64,000 bases of DNA, taken from Acidimicrobiales bacterium. GTDB taxonomy: Bacteria > Actinomycetota > Acidimicrobiia > Acidimicrobiales > Poriferisodalaceae. Location of the stretch: the NCBI GenBank assembly GCA_009843525.1, contig VYDH01000033.1, positions 124,001-188,000 of the forward strand. The letters are read 5' to 3'. The position numbers and the translations under genes were made by a program. Within the stretch, counting starts at the first letter, position 1, and every line of letters begins with the position of its first letter. Of the stretch, positions 54,402 to 64,000 are shown in pieces. The notes under the pieces were generated by a model, which ran no database searches, was not told the DNA's origin, and saw only the letters and a list, made by a program, of their open reading frames with translations.

Positions 54402-55427
54402 CTAACTTCGGAGCTCGTCAGCGCGCTGGACCCACGCCTCGGAGACGATCGTCGACACGGCGAAGATGTCGAGGCCGGTCGCGTCCAGTAGGCGATTTCG
54501 GACTCGCATGATCTCATCCATGTATGGCGCATATCGCGTGAGGAGCGCGTCAACCTCTTCCGACCTACCAAATCGGGCGATGGCTTGGGGATTGAAGTGA
54601 GGTTCGCCCGTGAGGATCGCGTACTCGATTCCGGTCATTGCAGCGAGGCGCCGCAGTTCGTCGTCGGAGTAGATCTCACTGGGCCAACTTCCGGCCTTTT
54701 CCGAGTTGTGTGTCCTGCAGAGCAACGTGGCGTTCTCGGTGGTGAGAGGCCAGAGGAAGACAGCTGGAAGGGTGTGGTCGAGGTGTCGCTCGCTGGTCTT
54801 GTCCACTGCGGTGAGGTCGATCCCACACTTGAAGCAACTGCCGCCGAAGCGCTGGATAACCGCGGCCGAATCGATGCGTTGCCCACCACCGAGTTCGATG
54901 TACAAACGCCGCTTCTGCGCAGCCTCGCGATGTTGGTCCGCGGTTCGCGTTTGGTTCTTGATCGAGTTGTAGACCTTCTTGCACAGTCTGCACTCGCTCT
55001 GCCGCTTGGTCTTCCGAGCCGCGTGGTTATCGAACGCGTCGAGTGGCTTGAGAGTGTTGCAGATGACGCAGTATTTGAAACGTCCGGCCTCGGCGAGGTA
55101 GTCGTCTACGAGGACGGCGAACTTGCCCTCCTCGATGACGAGGTCCTCCTCAATGTCGCGCAGGATGAAGTTGTAGAAGCTGACCTCGTCTCCACTGCGG
55201 TGTAGGAAGTCGCAGAGCGGGCACGGGATATCGAAGGCGTCACCGATCTCGTCGTCGCGAACGATGATCCACTGCGTGCAGTTTGCGTTGAGGCAGTTGA
55301 ACCCGCGGAACGCGACATCGCCCATCCCGACAACATGGTCCGCCCGGATCCGATCCGTCTTCTCAACTCTCGTGTAGGCGGCTCGTCGCGGCATCTGGCC
55401 CGTTTCTCCGACCTCGACCGGCGACAA
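54402..55427 (-). CDS. HNH restriction endonuclease
   Basis: 341 residues. C-terminal HNH site: Cys198/Cys201, then RHLDHTLP (His215, Asp217, His218), Asn232 and CRTHN (Cys237, His240). Four more Cys-pairs (45/50, 69/72, 120/123, 146/149) suggest zinc ribbons that may read DNA. It lies 56 nt downstream of two methyltransferase genes on the same strand, so it is the nuclease of a type II system. ATG at 55394 is an alternative start. GC content is visibly below that of flanking genes. Confidence 0.82.
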   Translation of the reverse strand: MSPVEVGETGQMPRRAAYTRVEKTDRIRADHVVGMGDVAFRGFNCLNANCTQWIIVRDDEIGDAFDIPCPLCDFLHRSGDEVSFYNFILRDIEEDLVIEEGKFAVLVDDYLAEAGRFKYCVICNTLKPLDAFDNHAARKTKRQSECRLCKKVYNSIKNQTRTADQHREAAQKRRLYIELGGGQRIDSAAVIQRFGGSCFKCGIDLTAVDKTSERHLDHTLPAVFLWPLTTENATLLCRTHNSEKAGSWPSEIYSDDELRRLAAMTGIEYAILTGEPHFNPQAIARFGRSEEVDALLTRYAPYMDEIMRVRNRLLDATGLDIFAVSTIVSEAWVQRADELRS

Positions 55428-55483: not shown

Positions 55484-56662
55484 TCATGGTCGACGACGAG
55501 CGAATAGGTACCAGTGGGCGACCGTCGCTCCCTTGTCTCGGAGTCCGTGAGTCTCCGTGTCCTCGACGTTTTCACGGCCGGTGTACGCAATCTCGAACCA
55601 AGGATCGATCTCGGGCCTGATCGCCGCGGCCATATTTACTCTTGCGGTCTCGCCGAGATGAAGAATGAACAAGCCGTCCGGCCGCAGCATCGCGTGCATG
55701 GCTCTTGCCAGCTCCCGATAAGGCCCCATCCCGGATCGCTGCTGTACGTCGATGTAGCGCTGCGGCTCAGTGTCGAAGTCATGTCGGTCCCAGCCCGTGA
55801 ACCAGAGCCGGAGCCAATTTGAGGACCAGAAACGAAGTGACCTGGCGAAGGGCGGCGAGGTGATGACGGCATCGACGGGACACCTAACGGGCACCTCACG
55901 ACAATCTGCTTCGTAAGCCTCGCCGTCGAGGGAGCCGGACGCCAAACCCTCAAGCTCTGGCAACACGCGGGCGAGGCGAGTCTCGAGACGTTCGATGACG
56001 CCCCGATACTCGAAAGGACCGGACGGTGCGAGAGGGGTGACCGGGTGTGAGCGTCTTGAGAGGGCATACGGACGATTGCCATGCAAGATGTGGAGCAGGC
56101 TTGAGAACACCACGTCTCTTGTCGGGCATGGCTCAAGGTCTTCCTTGAAAGCCTGCCGTGCGATGAGGACTTCCCGAAGGGTGTCTTCATGAAAATAGCT
56201 CCGGATCGGACCGTTTAGTCCGAAATCCACGTCGACCTCCCGAGTCAGCTCCGACAGTTCGGGGCCCTCGAGGATGCGCCCTTTCAAGTCCGCCACGAGA
56301 TCCGCTACTGCCGATGGATCAAACGGCTCAAGCTTCGCCCTGGTTACGGATGCGGCGAGTGGACTGAGGTCACTGCCGACACCGACTCGACCCTGACGCC
56401 GCGCTTCGAGAGGAATGGTGCCGACCCCGGCCATCGGGTCAAGCACGCGGTCTCCCGGCTCTGTGAACCACTCGATGAGGAACTTCGCGATCGAAGGCTT
56501 CAGCTTGCCCTGGTAGGAACAGAGCGAGTGGAGGATTCCGCCCCAGTTCCGTCGGCAGAATGGTTCGCTCTTGTAGGGGGCGAGGCCGCAAAAGCGACTC
56601 GCCCTTTCGGCGAGGTCTCCATGCGGCACGGCGATGGCGTCGAGAAGCGACAACTGGCTCAT
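55484..56662 (-). CDS. DNA methyltransferase (SPPF class), restriction-modification
   Basis: 392 residues. SAM-binding motif I is RVLDPMAGVGTIPLEA (73-88) and catalytic motif IV is ITSPPFARS (268-272 core), the S-P-P-F form usual for N4-cytosine (less often N6-adenine) methylation. The ~180 residues between them probably include target recognition. Its start overlaps the stop of the partner methyltransferase by one base. Confidence 0.88.
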   Translation of the reverse strand: MSQLSLLDAIAVPHGDLAERASRFCGLAPYKSEPFCRRNWGGILHSLCSYQGKLKPSIAKFLIEWFTEPGDRVLDPMAGVGTIPLEARRQGRVGVGSDLSPLAASVTRAKLEPFDPSAVADLVADLKGRILEGPELSELTREVDVDFGLNGPIRSYFHEDTLREVLIARQAFKEDLEPCPTRDVVFSSLLHILHGNRPYALSRRSHPVTPLAPSGPFEYRGVIERLETRLARVLPELEGLASGSLDGEAYEADCREVPVRCPVDAVITSPPFARSLRFWSSNWLRLWFTGWDRHDFDTEPQRYIDVQQRSGMGPYRELARAMHAMLRPDGLFILHLGETARVNMAAAIRPEIDPWFEIAYTGRENVEDTETHGLRDKGATVAHWYLFARRRP

Positions 56663-57903
56663 TACACGGCCTTCATTCGGATAAGCACCTGTGTCAGTTC
56701 TGTACCGTCGTAGGACCGCCTCGTGCGAAGCGGTTCGATGCTCTCGACAAGCCAGCCTTCTAGCGCTGCGGTCGCAGCCAGCAGTTCATGAGTTGGCACG
56801 TTGACGCCGCAGAACCGACTGTCTCCGATGTCGAGCAGCCAAGTCGCTCCGGGCCGCGAGCTACGTCTGACAGCCGCCGCCACTCGACGCATGTCTGAGA
56901 AGTACATGCGAACCATCGCCGGAATGCGCTGGTCGTACGCCACCTCGTCGAGCCGGCATGCGATCTCCTCGACCTCCGGCATCGTCGTCGGGTCCTCGCG
57001 CTTCTTCGAAATGTTGTTTATGCCAGCAGCAATGGTCGCGAGACGAAGGTCTGCTAAGTCGCTTTCATCAGGGATGAAGCCGAGCGCAAGCAGTTCGAGC
57101 TTGGTGTTCCGGCAGTAGTTGGTGCCGTTGAGGTAGGGCGGCGAGGTAATAATCAGGTCGGCGCTTGGATCGAGTTCAGGAAGCGACCGCGCATCGGAAC
57201 CTACCTGTACCGCTTGCCCGGCGATGGTGTGACCTGCAGTCTCGATGTCGTGGGCGAAGACTCTCAACTGATCAGATATCAGTGGCAGCAATGGTGCCGG
57301 ATCGGGATCTCCGGAGCGCCGTTTGCGAAGATCCGTTCGCCGAATCATGTTGCTCGCTGGGATCAGTGAAGTGGCGACTGCGAGTTTGGCTAGGTCGCGG
57401 ATCTCAGGTCGGCAGCCTTCGCATAGCTGAAGCGCCCCAAGCGCATCAGCGGCGACGCCGTCGGGAAAGAAGCAACGTCGCCGGTCAGCTTCAATCAATG
57501 GATGCTCCGAGTCCACAAGTGGTACCGGCCCGTGTGTGAGAGCCGCAGCGAGGGATGCGAGATCTGCCACAGCATCCGAGTTTGCAGCGGCCCTGGCCTT
57601 GTTGATCTTCACGTCGGCGACCCAGGCAAGGTAGGGGTTGACCTCCGAGAAGAAGCAGTCGTGGCCATGTTCGGCTGCTGCCAGCGCCGTGGTCCCAGAG
57701 CCGCCAAATGGGTCCAGGATTACCTGAGCATCGGGGAACTCACTTAGGGCGGAAGCGACAAGATCTGCGCTGTATCCCTCGACGAACGAGTACCAACGGT
57801 GAATCGGCCTATGCCGATTGTCATCAAATACTCCGAGCCGTCTCGCTGTGGCCGCATGGCCTGCGGCGATGGGAACGTCGAAAAGAACTTGCGTGGTGTT
57901 CAC
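56662..57903 (-). CDS. DNA methyltransferase (SPPY class), restriction-modification
   Basis: 413 residues. Motif I is VILDPFGGSGTTALAA (61-76), motif IV is IITSPPYLNGTNY (253-257 core). First gene of the three-gene cassette. Two different methyltransferases beside one nuclease usually mean an asymmetric recognition site, one enzyme per strand. GC content is low for this chromosome (some stretches near 50%), suggesting acquisition by transfer. Confidence 0.88.
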   Translation of the reverse strand: MNTTQVLFDVPIAAGHAATARRLGVFDDNRHRPIHRWYSFVEGYSADLVASALSEFPDAQVILDPFGGSGTTALAAAEHGHDCFFSEVNPYLAWVADVKINKARAAANSDAVADLASLAAALTHGPVPLVDSEHPLIEADRRRCFFPDGVAADALGALQLCEGCRPEIRDLAKLAVATSLIPASNMIRRTDLRKRRSGDPDPAPLLPLISDQLRVFAHDIETAGHTIAGQAVQVGSDARSLPELDPSADLIITSPPYLNGTNYCRNTKLELLALGFIPDESDLADLRLATIAAGINNISKKREDPTTMPEVEEIACRLDEVAYDQRIPAMVRMYFSDMRRVAAAVRRSSRPGATWLLDIGDSRFCGVNVPTHELLAATAALEGWLVESIEPLRTRRSYDGTELTQVLIRMKAV

Positions 57904-58284: not shown

Positions 58285-59538
58285 CTAGGCAGGGGCGGGG
58301 ATCTCGGTGAAGTTGAGCCAGGGGTGGAGCACTTCTGGTACGGCGATGGAGCCGTCGGGGCGCTGGTGGTTCTCCATGATGAACACGAGCGTGCGGCCGA
58401 CGGCGCATGCCGTGCCGTTCAGGGTGTGGACCAGCCCGTGGCCGTCGTCGTCGAACCAGCGGGTGCCCAGGCGCCGGGCCGAGTAATCGGTGTAGTTCGA
58501 GCATGAGGTGACCTCGCGGTACGCCCGCTCCGACGGCAGCCACACCTCAAGGTCGTACTTCTTGGCCGCCGCAGCACCCAGGTCGCCGGCCGCCACGTTG
58601 ATGACCCGGTAGGGCAGGTCGAGCGAGCCGACGATTTCCTCCTGTATGGCGCGCAGCGCCTCCAGCTCGTCCCAACTCGTGTCCGAGTCGCAGAACGAGA
58701 ACATCTCGACCTTGTCGAACTGGTGCACACGGAAGATGCCGCGGGTGTCCTTGCCGTACGTGCCGGCCTCGCGCCGGAAACACGATGAGAACCCGGCATA
58801 GCGCGACGGCAGCCCGGCCCGGTCCAGCCGCTCGCCCCGGTGCAGGCCCGCCAGCGCTACCTCGGATGTCCCGATCAGGAACAGGTCGTCGCCGTCGATC
58901 TCGTACACCTGGTGGCGGTCGGCGGGGAAGAACCCGGCCTCGGTCATCATCTCCTCGCGCACGAGCACTGGCGGCACGACAGGCAGGAAGCCGTCGCGCT
59001 CCAGCAGGTCCATCGTCCACTGCACGAGGGCGAATTCCAGCCGCACCGCCGCGCCCTTGAGGTAGGCGAACCGCGAGCCGCTGTTGCGGGCACCGCTCTC
59101 GGAGTCGACTAGGCCGGCCAGCGCTCCGATCTCGGCATGGTCGTGAGCAGGCGGATCGCCTCGCTCCCCCACCTCACGCACGGTTTCGAAGTGCTCCTCG
59201 CCGCCAGACGGCACCTCGGCCGCGGCCGGGTTGGGAACCTGCAGTGCCAGCTCGGTTCGCCGCTCGGCAGCTTCCCGCTCGGAGACCTCAAGGCGTTCCA
59301 CCTCTTCCTTGAGACGCGCCGCCTCGGCGATCTTCGCCGGGCGTTCGTCGGGGGCCGCCCGCCCGATCTCGCGCGATGCGGCGTTCTGCGCCGCCCGCGC
59401 CTGCTCAGCCTGGTGGGTGACTGCCCGCCACGCCTCGTCGGCCGCGAGCACCTCGTCGATGAACTCCGGCGAAGCGCCCTTGCGGGCTGCGCCATCTCGA
59501 TATGCGGCGTCATCCCGAAGCCGGCGGAGGTCGATCAC
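58285..59538 (-). CDS. serS: Serine-tRNA ligase
   Basis: 417-residue class II synthetase. N-terminal coiled coil (about 30-100), then motif 2 FRREAGTYGKDTRGIFRVHQF and motif 3 NGTACAVGRTLVFIMENHQ. GTG at 59538 has a TAGCTT box 8 nt upstream (leaderless). Length matches the family. Confidence 0.97.
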   Translation of the reverse strand: MIDLRRLRDDAAYRDGAARKGASPEFIDEVLAADEAWRAVTHQAEQARAAQNAASREIGRAAPDERPAKIAEAARLKEEVERLEVSEREAAERRTELALQVPNPAAAEVPSGGEEHFETVREVGERGDPPAHDHAEIGALAGLVDSESGARNSGSRFAYLKGAAVRLEFALVQWTMDLLERDGFLPVVPPVLVREEMMTEAGFFPADRHQVYEIDGDDLFLIGTSEVALAGLHRGERLDRAGLPSRYAGFSSCFRREAGTYGKDTRGIFRVHQFDKVEMFSFCDSDTSWDELEALRAIQEEIVGSLDLPYRVINVAAGDLGAAAAKKYDLEVWLPSERAYREVTSCSNYTDYSARRLGTRWFDDDGHGLVHTLNGTACAVGRTLVFIMENHQRPDGSIAVPEVLHPWLNFTEIPAPA

Positions 59539-59546
59539 GCCGGGTG

Positions 59547-59552
59547 AAGCTA
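59547..59552 (-). promoter_or_regulatory. Likely -10 box (TAGCTT) of leaderless serS
   Basis: TAGCTT on the minus strand, 8 nt before the serS GTG. Confidence 0.55.
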
Positions 59553-59621
59553 CCGGCGTCTGGGGCCCGCGCCGGGTTGCCGGTGCTTGCGCACTTGCTC
59601 GGCGCCCGCAAGCATCGCCAG

Positions 59622-61376
59622 ATGCCAGATCACGCGCCGGCCCCAGACCGGCACCTCCGCTTCGAAGCTTCTGACACGCCCCCGCTGCCGCTCACGGCCG
59701 GGCTGGGCCTGCAGTTCGCCATCCTGGCCATCGCCGGCATCGTGCTGACGCCTGCCATCGTTGTCCGAGCCGCCGATGGCACAGACGAGTACCTGGCGTG
59801 GGCCGTGTTTGCCGCCGCGGCGATCAGCGGCGTCAGCACGATCCTGCAGGCGGTCCGCTTCGGACGCATCGGCGCCGGTTACGTGCTGCTGATGGGCACC
59901 TCCGGCGCCTTCATCGCGGTCTGCGTCACAGCGCTCACCGACGGCGGGCCGGGGCTCTTGGCCACCTTGGTCGTGGCCTCGTCGCTGTTCCAGTTCCTGC
60001 TGGCTGCGAAGCTCTCACTGTTCCGGCGCCTGTTCACGCCGACCGTTGCCGGCACCGTGGTCATGCTCATCGCGGTCTCGGTGATGCCGCTCATCTTCGA
60101 CATGGTGGCTGCCTCTCCCGAAGACGCTGCCGCGGCGAGTGCGCCCGTGAGCGCCCTCGTGGCTGTCGGCGTCATTGTCGTGATCGCGCTCAAGGCCCGC
60201 GGGAGTCTCCGCCTGTGGGCGCCGGTGATCGGCATCGTGGTCGGATCAGTCATCGCGGCGTTCTTCGGGCTGTACGACTTCGACCGGATCGCCGAGGCGG
60301 GCTGGATCGGACTGCCCGACGGCGGCTGGCCCGGTTTCGACTTCACGTTCGGATCCGAGTTCTGGATCCTCTTGCCTGGTTTCATATTCGCCACCCTCAT
60401 CGGCGCGATCGAGACCATCGGCGACTCGGTGGCCATCCAGCGAGTGTCCTGGCGGCGGCCCCGCGCCGTCGACTACCGGGCAGTGCAGGGCGCTGTCGCC
60501 GCCGACGGCACCGGCAACCTGCTGTCGGGACTGGCCGGCACGGTGCCCAACACCACCTATTCCATGAGCATCTCCGTCACCGAGCTGACCGGCGTGGCGG
60601 CGCGCCGGGTCGGCGTGGCCATCGGCGCCGCGTTCGTCGTGATGGCATTCGTGCCGAAGGCGCTGGCCGTGGTGATGGCGGTGCCCGACGCCGTCGTCGC
60701 GGCATACGCAACGATCCTGCTGGCAATGCTGTTCGTCACCGGCATGCAGATCGTCGTCGCCGACGCCACCGACTACCGCAAGGGGCTGATCGCGGGTTTC
60801 TCGTTCTGGATCGGCGTGGGCTTCCAGAACGGCGTGATCTTCCCGGCGTATCTCGACGGCTTCGCGGGCGGATTCCTCAACAACGGCATGACGGCCGGCG
60901 GGCTGGCGGCGATTGTGCTGACGCTGTTCACCGAGGTCAGCCAGGCGCGCCCCAAGCGGCTCCGATGCGATCTGGCGACGTCGTCATTGCCGCAGATCCG
61001 GGTGTTCTTGGGCCGGTTCGCCGATCGCAATGGCTGGAGCCGGGCGATGTCGGACCGCCTCGACACAGTGGCCGAAGAGTCGCTGCTGACACTGACCGGC
61101 GCCGGGAGACCCGAGAGCGCCAGCGAGACTCGAGCCCTGCGGTTGACAGCGAGCAAGCAGGACGGCGGTGCCGTTCTTGAGTTCGTGGCCGCGGCGAGCG
61201 AGGAGAACATCGAGGACCGGCTCGCTGTGCTGGACTCGCAGAGCGTCGAGCGGCCAGTCGAACGGGATCTCTCGCTTCGCATGCTGCAGCATCACGCCGC
61301 GTCGGTGCATCATCAGCAGTATCACGAGGTGGATATCGTGACCGTTCACGTTGACGTGCCCGATCCAAGAGGCTGA
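59622..61376 (+). CDS. Xanthine/uracil permease with C-terminal ATPase-like domain
   Basis: 584 residues. The first ~440 are a NAT/NCS2 nucleobase transporter: LGLQFAILAIAGIVLTP, the family signature region GAIETIGDSVAIQ and TGNLLSGLAGTVPNTTYSMS. The last ~140 are soluble: FADRNGWSRAMSDRLDTVAEESL, then EFVAAASEENIEDRLAVL and HHAASVHHQQYHEVDIVTVHV, resembling a GHKL (histidine-kinase-like ATPase) fold with an N-box-like EESLL. ATG at 59622 is the likely start. Substrate not determined by sequence. Confidence 0.85.
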   Translation: MPDHAPAPDRHLRFEASDTPPLPLTAGLGLQFAILAIAGIVLTPAIVVRAADGTDEYLAWAVFAAAAISGVSTILQAVRFGRIGAGYVLLMGTSGAFIAVCVTALTDGGPGLLATLVVASSLFQFLLAAKLSLFRRLFTPTVAGTVVMLIAVSVMPLIFDMVAASPEDAAAASAPVSALVAVGVIVVIALKARGSLRLWAPVIGIVVGSVIAAFFGLYDFDRIAEAGWIGLPDGGWPGFDFTFGSEFWILLPGFIFATLIGAIETIGDSVAIQRVSWRRPRAVDYRAVQGAVAADGTGNLLSGLAGTVPNTTYSMSISVTELTGVAARRVGVAIGAAFVVMAFVPKALAVVMAVPDAVVAAYATILLAMLFVTGMQIVVADATDYRKGLIAGFSFWIGVGFQNGVIFPAYLDGFAGGFLNNGMTAGGLAAIVLTLFTEVSQARPKRLRCDLATSSLPQIRVFLGRFADRNGWSRAMSDRLDTVAEESLLTLTGAGRPESASETRALRLTASKQDGGAVLEFVAAASEENIEDRLAVLDSQSVERPVERDLSLRMLQHHAASVHHQQYHEVDIVTVHVDVPDPRG

Positions 61377-61414: not shown

Positions 61415-63199
61415 ATGAACGAACCGTCCTACGACGTCGTCTGGCCCGGAGCGCCGTCAGGCATCGAGCAACGGGAGCTGGCACCGAGGCTCGATACGTT
61501 GGCCGGCAAGCGGATCGGGTTCCTGTGGGACTACCTGTTCCGCGGCGATGAGCTGTTCCCGATTCTCGAGCGCGAGCTCGCTGCCCGCTACGAGGGCGTG
61601 ACGTTCGTGGGCTACGAGACATTCGGCAACACCCACGGCGGCGACGAGGCCGCGGTCATCGACCGCCTGCCTGACTCGCTGCGTTCGCGAGCTGTTGACG
61701 CCGTGGTGTCGGGCATGGGCTGCTGAGGCAGCTGCACGCCCGCCGTGGCGCGGGCAGCAGTCGCATCCGAAGCCGCAGGGGTGCCGTCGGTCTCGATCGT
61801 GTGCGAGAGCTTCGACGGCCAGGCCGCCGCGACCGCAAAGGGGCACGGATTCGAGCAGCTCCCGCTGGCGATCACCGTGGGCCACGTGGATGCCCAGTCC
61901 GCTTCGGATATGGAGAGCAACTTCGTCAATCACACCGTGGACGCCATCGTCGCCGGGCTGACCGGAGCATCTGCCGCACGCAACGGGACGAACGGCCGCG
62001 TCGCCCGCAGCGATCCGGCCGAGGGCAACGAGCGCTCGCTCGGCCCCTCCACGCTCGACTCAGCATCGCTCAACCCAGCCCCGTACGACACCGTGGCCAG
62101 TGGTTCGATCGACGAGATCAACGACGCCTTCGCCGAACGGGGATGGTCCGACGGCCTGCCGATCGTGCCGCCGACGGTGGATCGTGTTGAGCGCTTCCTG
62201 GCCGGCACGGGCTTGGACCCCCTGCAATCACTGGGCATTGCCCGAACTACCGGCCGCGACATGACCGTGTGGTCGGTGGCAACCAACGCCGTCATGGCCG
62301 GCTGCGAGCCGCGACACCTGGGTGTGCTGCTGGCCGCAGCACGCATCCTGGCCGACCCGCACTATGGCGCAGAGCACTCGGGCAACACCACCGGCGCCGA
62401 CGCGCTGATGATCCTCGACGGTCCGAATGCGACGGCCCTGGGCTTCAACTCCGGCGTCGGGGCACTGCGCGACGGTGTGCGCGCCAACACCAGCGTCGGC
62501 CGCTGGTTGCGGCTCTACCAGCGCAACGTGTTCGGTTTCACTGCGGCCGAGCACGACAAGTCCACCTTCGGGAACTCGTTCCGCGTGGTGCTGTGCGAAG
62601 ACGCCACCGCCCTCGCCGACATCGGCTGGGACCCCGTCAGCGCCGAGTTCGGTTTCGGCGCTGACGATGACGTGCTGACCATGGCCCGCTTCAACAGTGG
62701 TGCCATCGTCGGCAGCGCGTTCGGTTCCACTCCCGACGAGATCGTGCCGTATCTTGCCGACGGCTTGGCGCGGATCACCGGCTGGGACCTGGGGCACTTG
62801 TACGGGCTCGGGCGCATGCACTACCGGCCGCTGCTGGTGCTGTCGCCGATCCTGGCGCGCACCTGCGCAACTTCGGGCTGGACCAAGGCGAACCTGGCCG
62901 AGGCGCTCTTCGAGCACGCTCGCATCCCGGCGTGGCGCTTCGAGAAGCTCATCGGCGAGTGGACCAACCTGGCGGCAGGCCGTCCCCAGCTCACCGACGT
63001 CGTCGCCGCCGGCGATCTGCCGTCGCAGTTCGCCGAATCAGACGATCCCGACCGCCTGGTGCCAATCGTCTCGGAGCCGGCAAAGTTCGTGATCGCGGTC
63101 GCAGGCGACGCGAACCGCACCAACGCCTACGTATTCAGCCACGACGGCCCCCACGGCGACTACACCGCCGCCGCGGTCGAGCAGCTCAGCCTCGACTGA
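61415..63199 (+). CDS. UGSC-family selenoprotein (in-frame TGA = selenocysteine)
   Basis: 594 residues when the TGA at 61724-61726 is read as selenocysteine (residue 104): ...VVSGMGC-U-GSCTPAVARA.... This is the defining C-U-G-S-C motif of the UGSC family. Residues 1 to about 185 form that domain (KRIGFLWDYLFRGDELFP at the start). A second domain from about 225 (FAERGWSDGLPIVPPTVDRV) to the end has no known function. A hairpin directly after the TGA looks like a bacterial SECIS. GGGGGA lies 7 nt before the ATG. Standard gene callers split this into two ORFs (61415-61726 and 61745-63199). selA, selB, selC and selD are not in the window. Confidence 0.88.
61732..61760 (+). promoter_or_regulatory. 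Candidate SECIS element of the UGSC selenoprotein
   Basis: CTGC/GCAG (61732-61735, 61757-61760) and GCCCGC/GCGGGC (61738-61743, 61750-61755) form a bulged stem with apical loop CGTGGC. The loop starts 17 nt after the TGA and holds a G-U, as SelB-binding bacterial SECIS hairpins do. Confidence 0.65.
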
Positions 63200-63237: not shown

Positions 63238-63621
63238 TCAGCAGTCGAGGTTGGGACTGAGGTCGCAGCCGGCGGGGTCGGTCCAGAACAGCATCGAGGT
63301 GCCCATCGCCGCGTAGACCGCGATAGCGAGCACCAGCCCTCCTACGAACATCCACGTGAACAGCTTGTTGTCGAAGCGCAGGTGCATGAAGTAGGCCACG
63401 ACGATCTCGAACTTGACGACCATCAGTATCAGCAGCAACGGCACTTCCAGCGGGCCGACCCTGTCATCGAAGAAGTAGATCAGCACTTCGGCCGCCGTGA
63501 GCACGGCGAGCAGCAGGGCGACCTTGATGTAGCCGAAGTCGCTCAGGCCGTGGTCATGATCGTCGTGAGCCTCGTCGGAGGGGTGGATCTCTTCGGATGC
63601 GGCTTCGGTGGCGGTGCTCAT
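63238..63621 (-). CDS. Cytochrome c oxidase subunit IV (prokaryotic COX4 family)
   Basis: 127 residues. A His/Asp-rich N-terminal tail (DEAHDDHDHGLSDFGY) precedes three helices: IKVALLLAVLTAAEVLIYFF, LLLILMVVKFEIVVAYFMHLRFD and the last near WMFVGGLVLAIAVY. This is the COX4_pro pattern of aa3-type oxidases. Starts 11 nt after subunit III. Confidence 0.9.
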   Translation of the reverse strand: MSTATEAASEEIHPSDEAHDDHDHGLSDFGYIKVALLLAVLTAAEVLIYFFDDRVGPLEVPLLLILMVVKFEIVVAYFMHLRFDNKLFTWMFVGGLVLAIAVYAAMGTSMLFWTDPAGCDLSPNLDC

Positions 63622-63632
63622 CGCTGCACTTC

Positions 63633-64000
63633 CTACGGGATCAGGTACACGACCGCGAAGATCACGATCCAGACGATGTCGACGAAGTGCCAGTACAGGC
63701 CGATGATCTCGACGGTCTCTGCTCGCTCAGGACCGATGATCCCTCGATTGATCATCGCCCACAGCGTGACCAGCATGATGATGCCCAGCGACACGTGGAC
63801 GCCGTGGAAGCCGGTCAGCGTGTAGAAGGCCGACGACGAGATGCTGACGGTGAAGCCGAGGCCTTCCCGGTAGAAGCTCGTGAACTCGTATACCTGACCG
63901 GCGATGAACACGGCACCCTGTGCTGCAGTGGTCAGCAGCCACAGCTTGCAGCGCTCCATCTCGCCCCTGGCGATCGCCGACACCGCGAGCACCATGGTGA
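63633..64000 (-). CDS. ctaE: Cytochrome c oxidase subunit III (5' end outside window)
   Basis: The C-terminal ~122 residues are visible. Typical subunit III helices are AAQGAVFIAGQVYEFTSFYREGL, SAFYTLTGFHGVHVSLGIIML and VEIIGLYWHFVDIVWIVIFAVVYL, with the conserved GFHGVHV and WHFVD motifs. The gene continues beyond 64000. Confidence 0.95.
   Translation of the reverse strand, partial: TMVLAVSAIARGEMERCKLWLLTTAAQGAVFIAGQVYEFTSFYREGLGFTVSISSSAFYTLTGFHGVHVSLGIIMLVTLWAMINRGIIGPERAETVEIIGLYWHFVDIVWIVIFAVVYLIP

Follow-up and report, generated by a model that had tools for sequence, protein, structure and literature searches.

A highly probable selenoprotein of an Acidimicrobiales bacterium that unites UGSC with its habitual gene neighbour, and a likely remote relation of UGSC to GrdB/PrdB

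The window analysed here is a stretch of 64,000 nucleotides from an Acidimicrobiales bacterium (GenBank assembly GCA_009843525.1, contig VYDH01000033.1, positions 124,001 to 188,000 of the forward strand), and window coordinates below are counted from its first letter. A gene with an in-frame TGA codon lies near its end, together with the following features:

59502..61376, + strand, NCS2 xanthine/uracil-type permease, directly upstream (above the Pfam cut-offs, below those of NCBIfam)
61415..63199, + strand, putative complete selenoprotein gene, UGSC domain plus C-terminal partner domain (594 residues, Sec at 104)
61436..61963, + strand, UGSC domain, residues 8-183 (PF24696, 105 bits)
61721..61723, + strand, Cys103, immediately N-terminal of Sec in the fused type (sequence comparison)
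61724..61726, + strand, TGA codon, predicted selenocysteine 104, motif C103-U104-G-S-C107 (conservation at close loci, Cys relatives, sel genes)
61733..61735, + strand, Cys107, second member of the UxxC pair (65/65 alignment rows, of which the separate UGSC rows had been selected for the motif)
61738..61755, + strand, SECIS-like hairpin core, stem GCCCGC/GCGGGC, loop CGUGGC (stem/loop and codon conservation)
61985..62068, + strand, low-confidence linker, residues 191-218 (pLDDT below 50)
62078..63184, + strand, C-terminal partner domain, about residues 222-590 (a separate gene adjoining UGSC at other loci)
62303..62305, + strand, Cys297 of the partner domain, in NAVMAGC (near-invariant, 99% of 79 rows)

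The reading frame starts at ATG 61415, runs for 103 codons ending in AVVSGMGC and reaches TGA 61724-61726; the same frame continues with GSCTPAVARA for 490 open codons up to a terminal TGA at 63197-63199, giving 594 residues when the first TGA (codon 104) is translated as Sec. The original prediction had described this interrupted frame, and its coordinates and length were reproduced. Third-position G+C is 0.85 before the TGA and 0.86 after it. A mechanical list of open reading frames yields exactly two frames here, consistent with two separate proteins, the first stopping at TGA 61724 and the second restarting at GTG 61745 with no recoding, but such a break would cut the UGSC domain at its motif. 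A UGSC gene on plasmid pFER4 of Paracoccus ferrooxidans (L186:6390-6959, + strand) is split by its annotation in this very way into two hypothetical proteins; this plasmid also carries selB, about 4 kb downstream of the gene. This is the splitting that had been anticipated from automatic annotation, to which genes of the window type can be subject.

Relatives of the fused gene were collected at 23 loci in named metagenome genomes, mostly of Acidimicrobiia, and in 198 sampled genomes of the order. In tblastn alignments that did not require a TGA, the codon aligned with residue 104 is TGA in 44 of 44 close loci, drawn from the 53 loci L029-L081, nine of which gave no close match over this residue; the 44 loci amount to 38 distinct aligned stretches, with some genes fetched twice and the window's own copy (L052) included. 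No TGA-free allele occurs among the close relatives at these 44 loci. With the genome a draft and the frame interrupted just once, a pseudogene or a sequencing error might be suspected, the more so as one relative (G017:C148) has an additional TAA. Nevertheless, independently assembled genomes share this TGA at protein identities as low as about 52%, and the genome containing the window has five UGSC genes with one TGA each (5/5). Conservation across the close loci excludes a chance stop, and we consider this explanation practically negligible. The original prediction had also proposed a comparison with UGSC proteins carrying Cys at the TGA position; five such remoter proteins were found (L091, L095, L111, L114, and L115), L091 being a remote fused form with a frame of 710 aa, and Cys versions also occur in the plasmid UGSC proteins L184, L187, L189, L190, L191, and L193.

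The genome containing the window (G000) comprises 3.34 Mb in 43 contigs and is 93.8% complete. It has the full set of genes whose absence, according to the original prediction, would have refuted a selenoprotein: one copy of selA (381 bits), selB adjoining selA on the same contig (277 bits, above the cut-off), selD (352 bits), and tRNA-Sec, which has the anticodon TCA, scores 66 bits, and is also called by ARAGORN. The selD gene (L090; G000:C5:68078-69031, − strand) has an internal, in-frame TGA, and its product is for this reason perhaps itself a selenoprotein. Across the order, 87 of the 95 genomes with UGSC have a selA match of at least 150 bits. Three of the others (G053, G155, and G180) have UGSC rows without a stop and no selA match of this strength, and the rest below this threshold comprise G018, with only a weak UGSC match, and G001, G063, G170, and G197, which are 78-90% complete. 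Thirty genomes of the order have selA without UGSC, and selA is kept in G019, whose UGSC includes no TGA row, and in G127, which has a mixed set.

Downstream of the TGA, a bulged hairpin with a loop containing G and U had been proposed to begin after 5 nt. The hairpin and its G/U loop are indeed present, but the conserved part is confined to the inner 6-bp stem with the loop CGUG.., 11 nt 3' of the TGA, and the lower part of the predicted fold, in which the proposed start lies, varies between relatives. G and U in the hairpin loop matter to SelB. We compared 25 distinct sequences of 35 fusions and 21 of 26 separate UGSC genes, after discarding a chance frame in L056; a broken fusion that turned up as both L048 and L073 was not among the 35. 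The stem is intact in 25/25 distinct fusion rows, in all of which the loop starts with CGUG. Fold energy alone is weak evidence for the hairpin: the window RNA reaches -23.4 kcal/mol, with a z of -1.68 against dinucleotide shuffles, 14 of 200 of which fold as well, and against synonymous shuffles z is -0.40 for the window, -0.51 on average for the 35 fusions (27 negative), and -1.04 for the 26 separate UGSC genes (22 negative).

Codon use, unlike energy, is strong evidence for the hairpin. Among 21 fusions less than 80% identical, the Thr, Pro, Ala, Val, and Arg codons at +4, +5, +6, +7, and +9 are invariant. The residue at +8 is not conserved, and variation is also seen in the Ala codon at +10, which extends beyond the stem by its third base. 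Elsewhere in the gene, only 1 of 222 conserved degenerate positions reaches a top-codon share of 0.97, the mean being 0.60. In the separate UGSC genes this position is taken by a stem of 8 bp, topped by a GUN loop in 18 of 21 rows, and two-sided changes occur: pair 21-27 is G-C in 4 rows and C-G in 17, and pair 16-32 is U-A in 17, G-C in 2, and unpaired in 2. Of these 8 stem positions, only 1-5 are paired in each of the five Cys forms. The fused-type stem is invariant and therefore gives no covariation signal, and an Rfam search returned no SECIS match at the hairpin. The codon, stem, and loop patterns are those expected of a SelB-binding hairpin beneath a coding sequence. With the TGA conserved at every close locus, Cys in its place in remoter relatives, the Sec genes present, and the hairpin codons frozen, two separate proteins are very improbable; the window gene almost certainly encodes one 594-residue selenoprotein in which UGA 104 is decoded as Sec, as originally predicted.

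The N-terminal half belongs to the known UGSC family, as judged by its Pfam profile: PF24696 scores 105 bits against a gathering cut-off of 25, and the U/C-G-S-C motif is present as UGSC at residues 104-107. The family assignment of the original prediction is upheld by this match, but the NCBIfam UGSC model (NF041046) gives 54.3 bits, below its curated cut-off of 125. The N-terminal domain, Sec in UGSC, and a SECIS-like hairpin downstream are what the window protein has in common with this family. It differs from separate UGSC proteins in its fused partner domain and in the residue before Sec, which is Cys in the fused type (CUGSC), whereas the separate UGSC proteins listed have mostly Asp and some His or Asn there. 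The Cys-Sec pair of the CUGSC type resembles the GCUG end of mammalian thioredoxin reductase.

A fused UGSC selenoprotein is a known kind of object, since a fusion of UGSC with a conserved domain termed 'Unknown_1', of unknown function, appears in Figure S1A of a 2008 ocean survey (PMC2398784), which we liken to the window protein by its description only. The survey text counts UGSC among the commonest selenoprotein families, with 255 sequences, and calls its fold likely thioredoxin-like (PMC2398784). Reviews of 2022 and 2026 list UGSC among predicted selenoproteins, with no function given in the passages concerned (PMC9312934, PMC13188914), and the literature searched, mostly abstracts, nowhere mentions that UGSC has a standing partner or is related to GrdB.

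The second domain had been described as long and of unknown role. Neither Pfam nor NCBIfam gave a match over residues 222-590, or to the corresponding domain of four separate G000 proteins, and the domain represents a widespread protein family with no model in either database. It is not without a genomic context, for it generally accompanies UGSC genes. Its near-invariant residues are Gly247, Gly296, Cys297, and Arg363, and plasmid records that name the domain call it hypothetical. Profiles built from 15 fusions detect 89 frames with the partner domain, 71 with UGSC, and 39 with both. The four separate UGSC genes of G000 each lie near a partner gene, directly adjoining it in L082, L084, and L085 and with one gene between in L083, and the fifth UGSC gene is the fusion. 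Further fused forms were seen in L091 and Variovorax (both with Cys), in G538 (with Sec), and in Sporomusa and Vibrio (with no motif). The last two lie on plasmids (L188:2887-8041 and L194:4061-8068), near genes for aconitase X and DUF126 proteins.

A survey of the phylum gave 47 UGSC rows above the cut-off in 396 genomes, and the partner lies near UGSC or is fused to it in 44 of the 47 (31/31 in L153-L183, 5/5 in G000, L056 and L120, and 6/9 of the remainder). A six-frame scan found both the core gene and the partner in L164, L171, L172, and L178. The E-values of the later partner HMMs are not independent, these HMMs having been built partly from the same loci, but the partner had already been detected in many of them by the earlier HMM, made from the 15 fusions, which likewise detects it in the six loci of the remaining nine. 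UGSC stands without a partner in the examined stretch at G053:C23 and G242:C612, both near a contig end, and at G344:C68, an apparent UGSC fragment of about 60 residues (L202:3966-4160, + strand). L121 and L122, whose UGSC rows fall below the cut-off, contain neither UGSC nor partner by profiles.

Plasmids carry the same pair in haloarchaea, alpha- and betaproteobacteria, and Arthrobacter. Searching them by tblastn with the L085 proteins returned 24 records for the partner and 15 for UGSC, and 15 of 15 UGSC matches lie on the same strand as a partner match and within 0.4 kb of it. Nine partner records had no UGSC match at the tblastn threshold; four of these were examined (L187, L188, L189, and L194), and a UGSC-like domain was found by profile in each, weakly in L188 and L194. 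Among the 198 genomes of the order, 95 have UGSC and 95 match the window protein (P0001), with both in 93, neither in 101, and one only in 4. This cross-table is not fully independent, since P0001 contains both domains, although most of the P0001 rows listed fall in the partner domain. We conclude from this gene association that UGSC and its partner very probably form a functional pair, to which the window fusion is a natural witness, the partner usually being a separate neighbour of UGSC genes.

Several observations link the pair to thioredoxin. We called 31 partner proteins, 17 of them over 430 aa; 12 of these 17 have both CxxC and TVPT in an N-terminal domain, two have TVPT only, and three have neither motif. 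Among nine separate partner proteins scanned, Pfam thioredoxin was matched in one (L086), below the cut-off. Of 11 annotated plasmid regions, three have a gene named trxB close to the pair, in the order trxB-trxA-partner-UGSC beside the Cys pair of Arthrobacter ERGS1:01 (L190), and the other 8 have none; Pfam confirms thioredoxin and pyridine-nucleotide disulphide oxidoreductases near plasmid pairs. The 25 families listed for 39 actinobacterial neighbours include no thioredoxin reductase.

We then considered whether UGSC itself might be a selenoprotein of thioredoxin-like fold that acts on proteins as a thiol-disulfide oxidoreductase, the second domain serving as a redox relay. The UxxC motif, common to the window protein and thioredoxin-like UxxC selenoproteins, would fit this, as would the near-invariant Cys297. 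An AlphaFold model made on 108 aligned sequences (107 of 112 references plus P0001) reached a pLDDT of 88.7 and a pTM of 0.90; a single-sequence model of P0001, with a pLDDT of 36, was discarded. The UGSC part of the good model shows a repeated, parallel strand-helix order, with Sec after strand 96-102 at the start of a helix; in this model the order is Rossmann-like and differs from that of thioredoxin. Foldseek found no PDB match to it at E <= 0.001; ribose-binding proteins are among the partial matches, and no thioredoxin is among the 50 of 1386 matches listed. The highest-ranked Foldseek rows, fumarate hydratase and FtsZ (rmsd near 19) among them, were not treated as meaningful. P0001 has no match in a PDB sequence search and none to Pfam thioredoxin at E <= 1, and the partner proteins often carry a thioredoxin-like domain of their own, with which the UGSC profile aligns at an hhalign probability of only 0.2%. 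Altogether, we regard a thioredoxin-like fold as improbable.

A different relation emerged when the profile of 68 UGSC domains was compared with one of 23 Sec-domain sequences, 14 of the GrdB type (UGT) and nine with UPxC, which we take to be PrdB-like. GrdB is the selenoprotein B of glycine/sarcosine/betaine reductase (PF07355) and PrdB belongs to D-proline reductase. The hhalign probability is 95.9 (E 5e-9 for a single comparison) over 92 columns, Sec falling on Sec, with the similar motif UG[ST]xT. It remains 92.4 with the motif masked, against at most 1.3 in 60 column shuffles and 2.3 for a reversed alignment. By subset, the probability is 34 with the 14 GrdB-type sequences alone and 90.7 with the nine PrdB-like alone. 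The partner domain gives 1.4 with the same GrdB/PrdB profile, that is, no match, and the window protein differs further from GrdB/PrdB in having no PF07355 match at E <= 1 (HMMER). A PDB sequence search with a GrdB found no solved relative. From these profile comparisons, UGSC is likely a remote homologue of the Sec domain of GrdB/PrdB. GrdB-like proteins with a UGT motif also occur in Actinomycetota genomes (L123 and L125-L137, with TGA read as Sec).

Thioredoxin is the electron source of GrdB and also the likely electron source of the UGSC pair. UGA 104 is very probably decoded as Sec, aided by the SelB-type hairpin that follows it, and in the mechanism that we propose UGSC and its partner would form one Sec- (or Cys-) dependent reductase. 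U104 would attack a small organic substrate, the product would be released as U104 forms a selenenylsulfide with C107 (or with C103, or with C297 of the partner), and the oxidised enzyme would be reset by thioredoxin and thioredoxin reductase. We give an even chance to the reading of the pair as a thioredoxin-fed GrdB-like reductase, and consider the explanation as a whole, which joins the selenoprotein and the pair to this reductase, to be probable.

The gene neighbourhoods bear on what such an enzyme might act upon. A conserved operon for the fused type was considered and rejected: among 17 loci, whose neighbourhoods were judged by protein starts, only the closest relatives of the window gene have the NCS2 permease in this position. 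The neighbours of other pairs vary from locus to locus, and in 39 of 43 same-strand neighbours scanned no family was matched more than twice. One UGSC gene of G000 (L085:6611-9311, + strand) has a nitrile hydratase alpha gene and a short gene before it and its partner gene after it. Another partner/UGSC pair lies directly after a homocysteine S-methyltransferase family gene (L084:3662-6663, + strand), closest to betaine-homocysteine methyltransferase, below the cut-off of that model. Plasmid pairs have as neighbours CoA transferases, members of the isocitrate lyase/PEP mutase family, phosphosulfolactate synthase-like proteins, TRAP/TTT binding proteins, and organic-acid transporters. These neighbours point to no single substrate.

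Such variability, and the lack of an operon common to the fused type beyond its closest relatives at the 17 loci, would also suit a GrdB-like protein whose Sec/Cys pair serves detoxification, by reduction of a peroxide, a metal or an electrophile, instead of cleaving a catabolic substrate. Several plasmid pairs are nevertheless placed among catabolic genes (the CoA transferases, the isocitrate lyase/PEP mutase family, and the TRAP/TTT binding proteins), and the homocysteine methyltransferase and nitrile hydratase genes beside two pairs of G000 likewise argue against detoxification, which we consider unlikely. Under the reductase reading that we prefer, UGSC and its partner might constitute a widespread, unrecognised class of GrdB-like selenoenzymes, with Cys versions in haloarchaea and others, run by thioredoxin and opening catabolic pathways by reductive cleavage, of which the window fusion would be the version in one piece, its active site bearing a Cys-Sec pair; for this wider proposal our confidence is tentative, somewhat short of even. 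The near-constant partner, the thioredoxin link, and the GrdB/PrdB relation would together make UGSC a testable enzyme.

Other genes of the window were noted by eye. Two adjacent frames on the − strand (55484-57903 and 54402-55427) have SPP[YF]-type motifs and look DNA methyltransferase-like, and a frame resembling an HNH endonuclease was noted with them. Downstream of the fusion, genes resembling those for cytochrome c oxidase subunits occupy 63238-64000 (− strand), and similar ones lie near the fusion in several close relatives.
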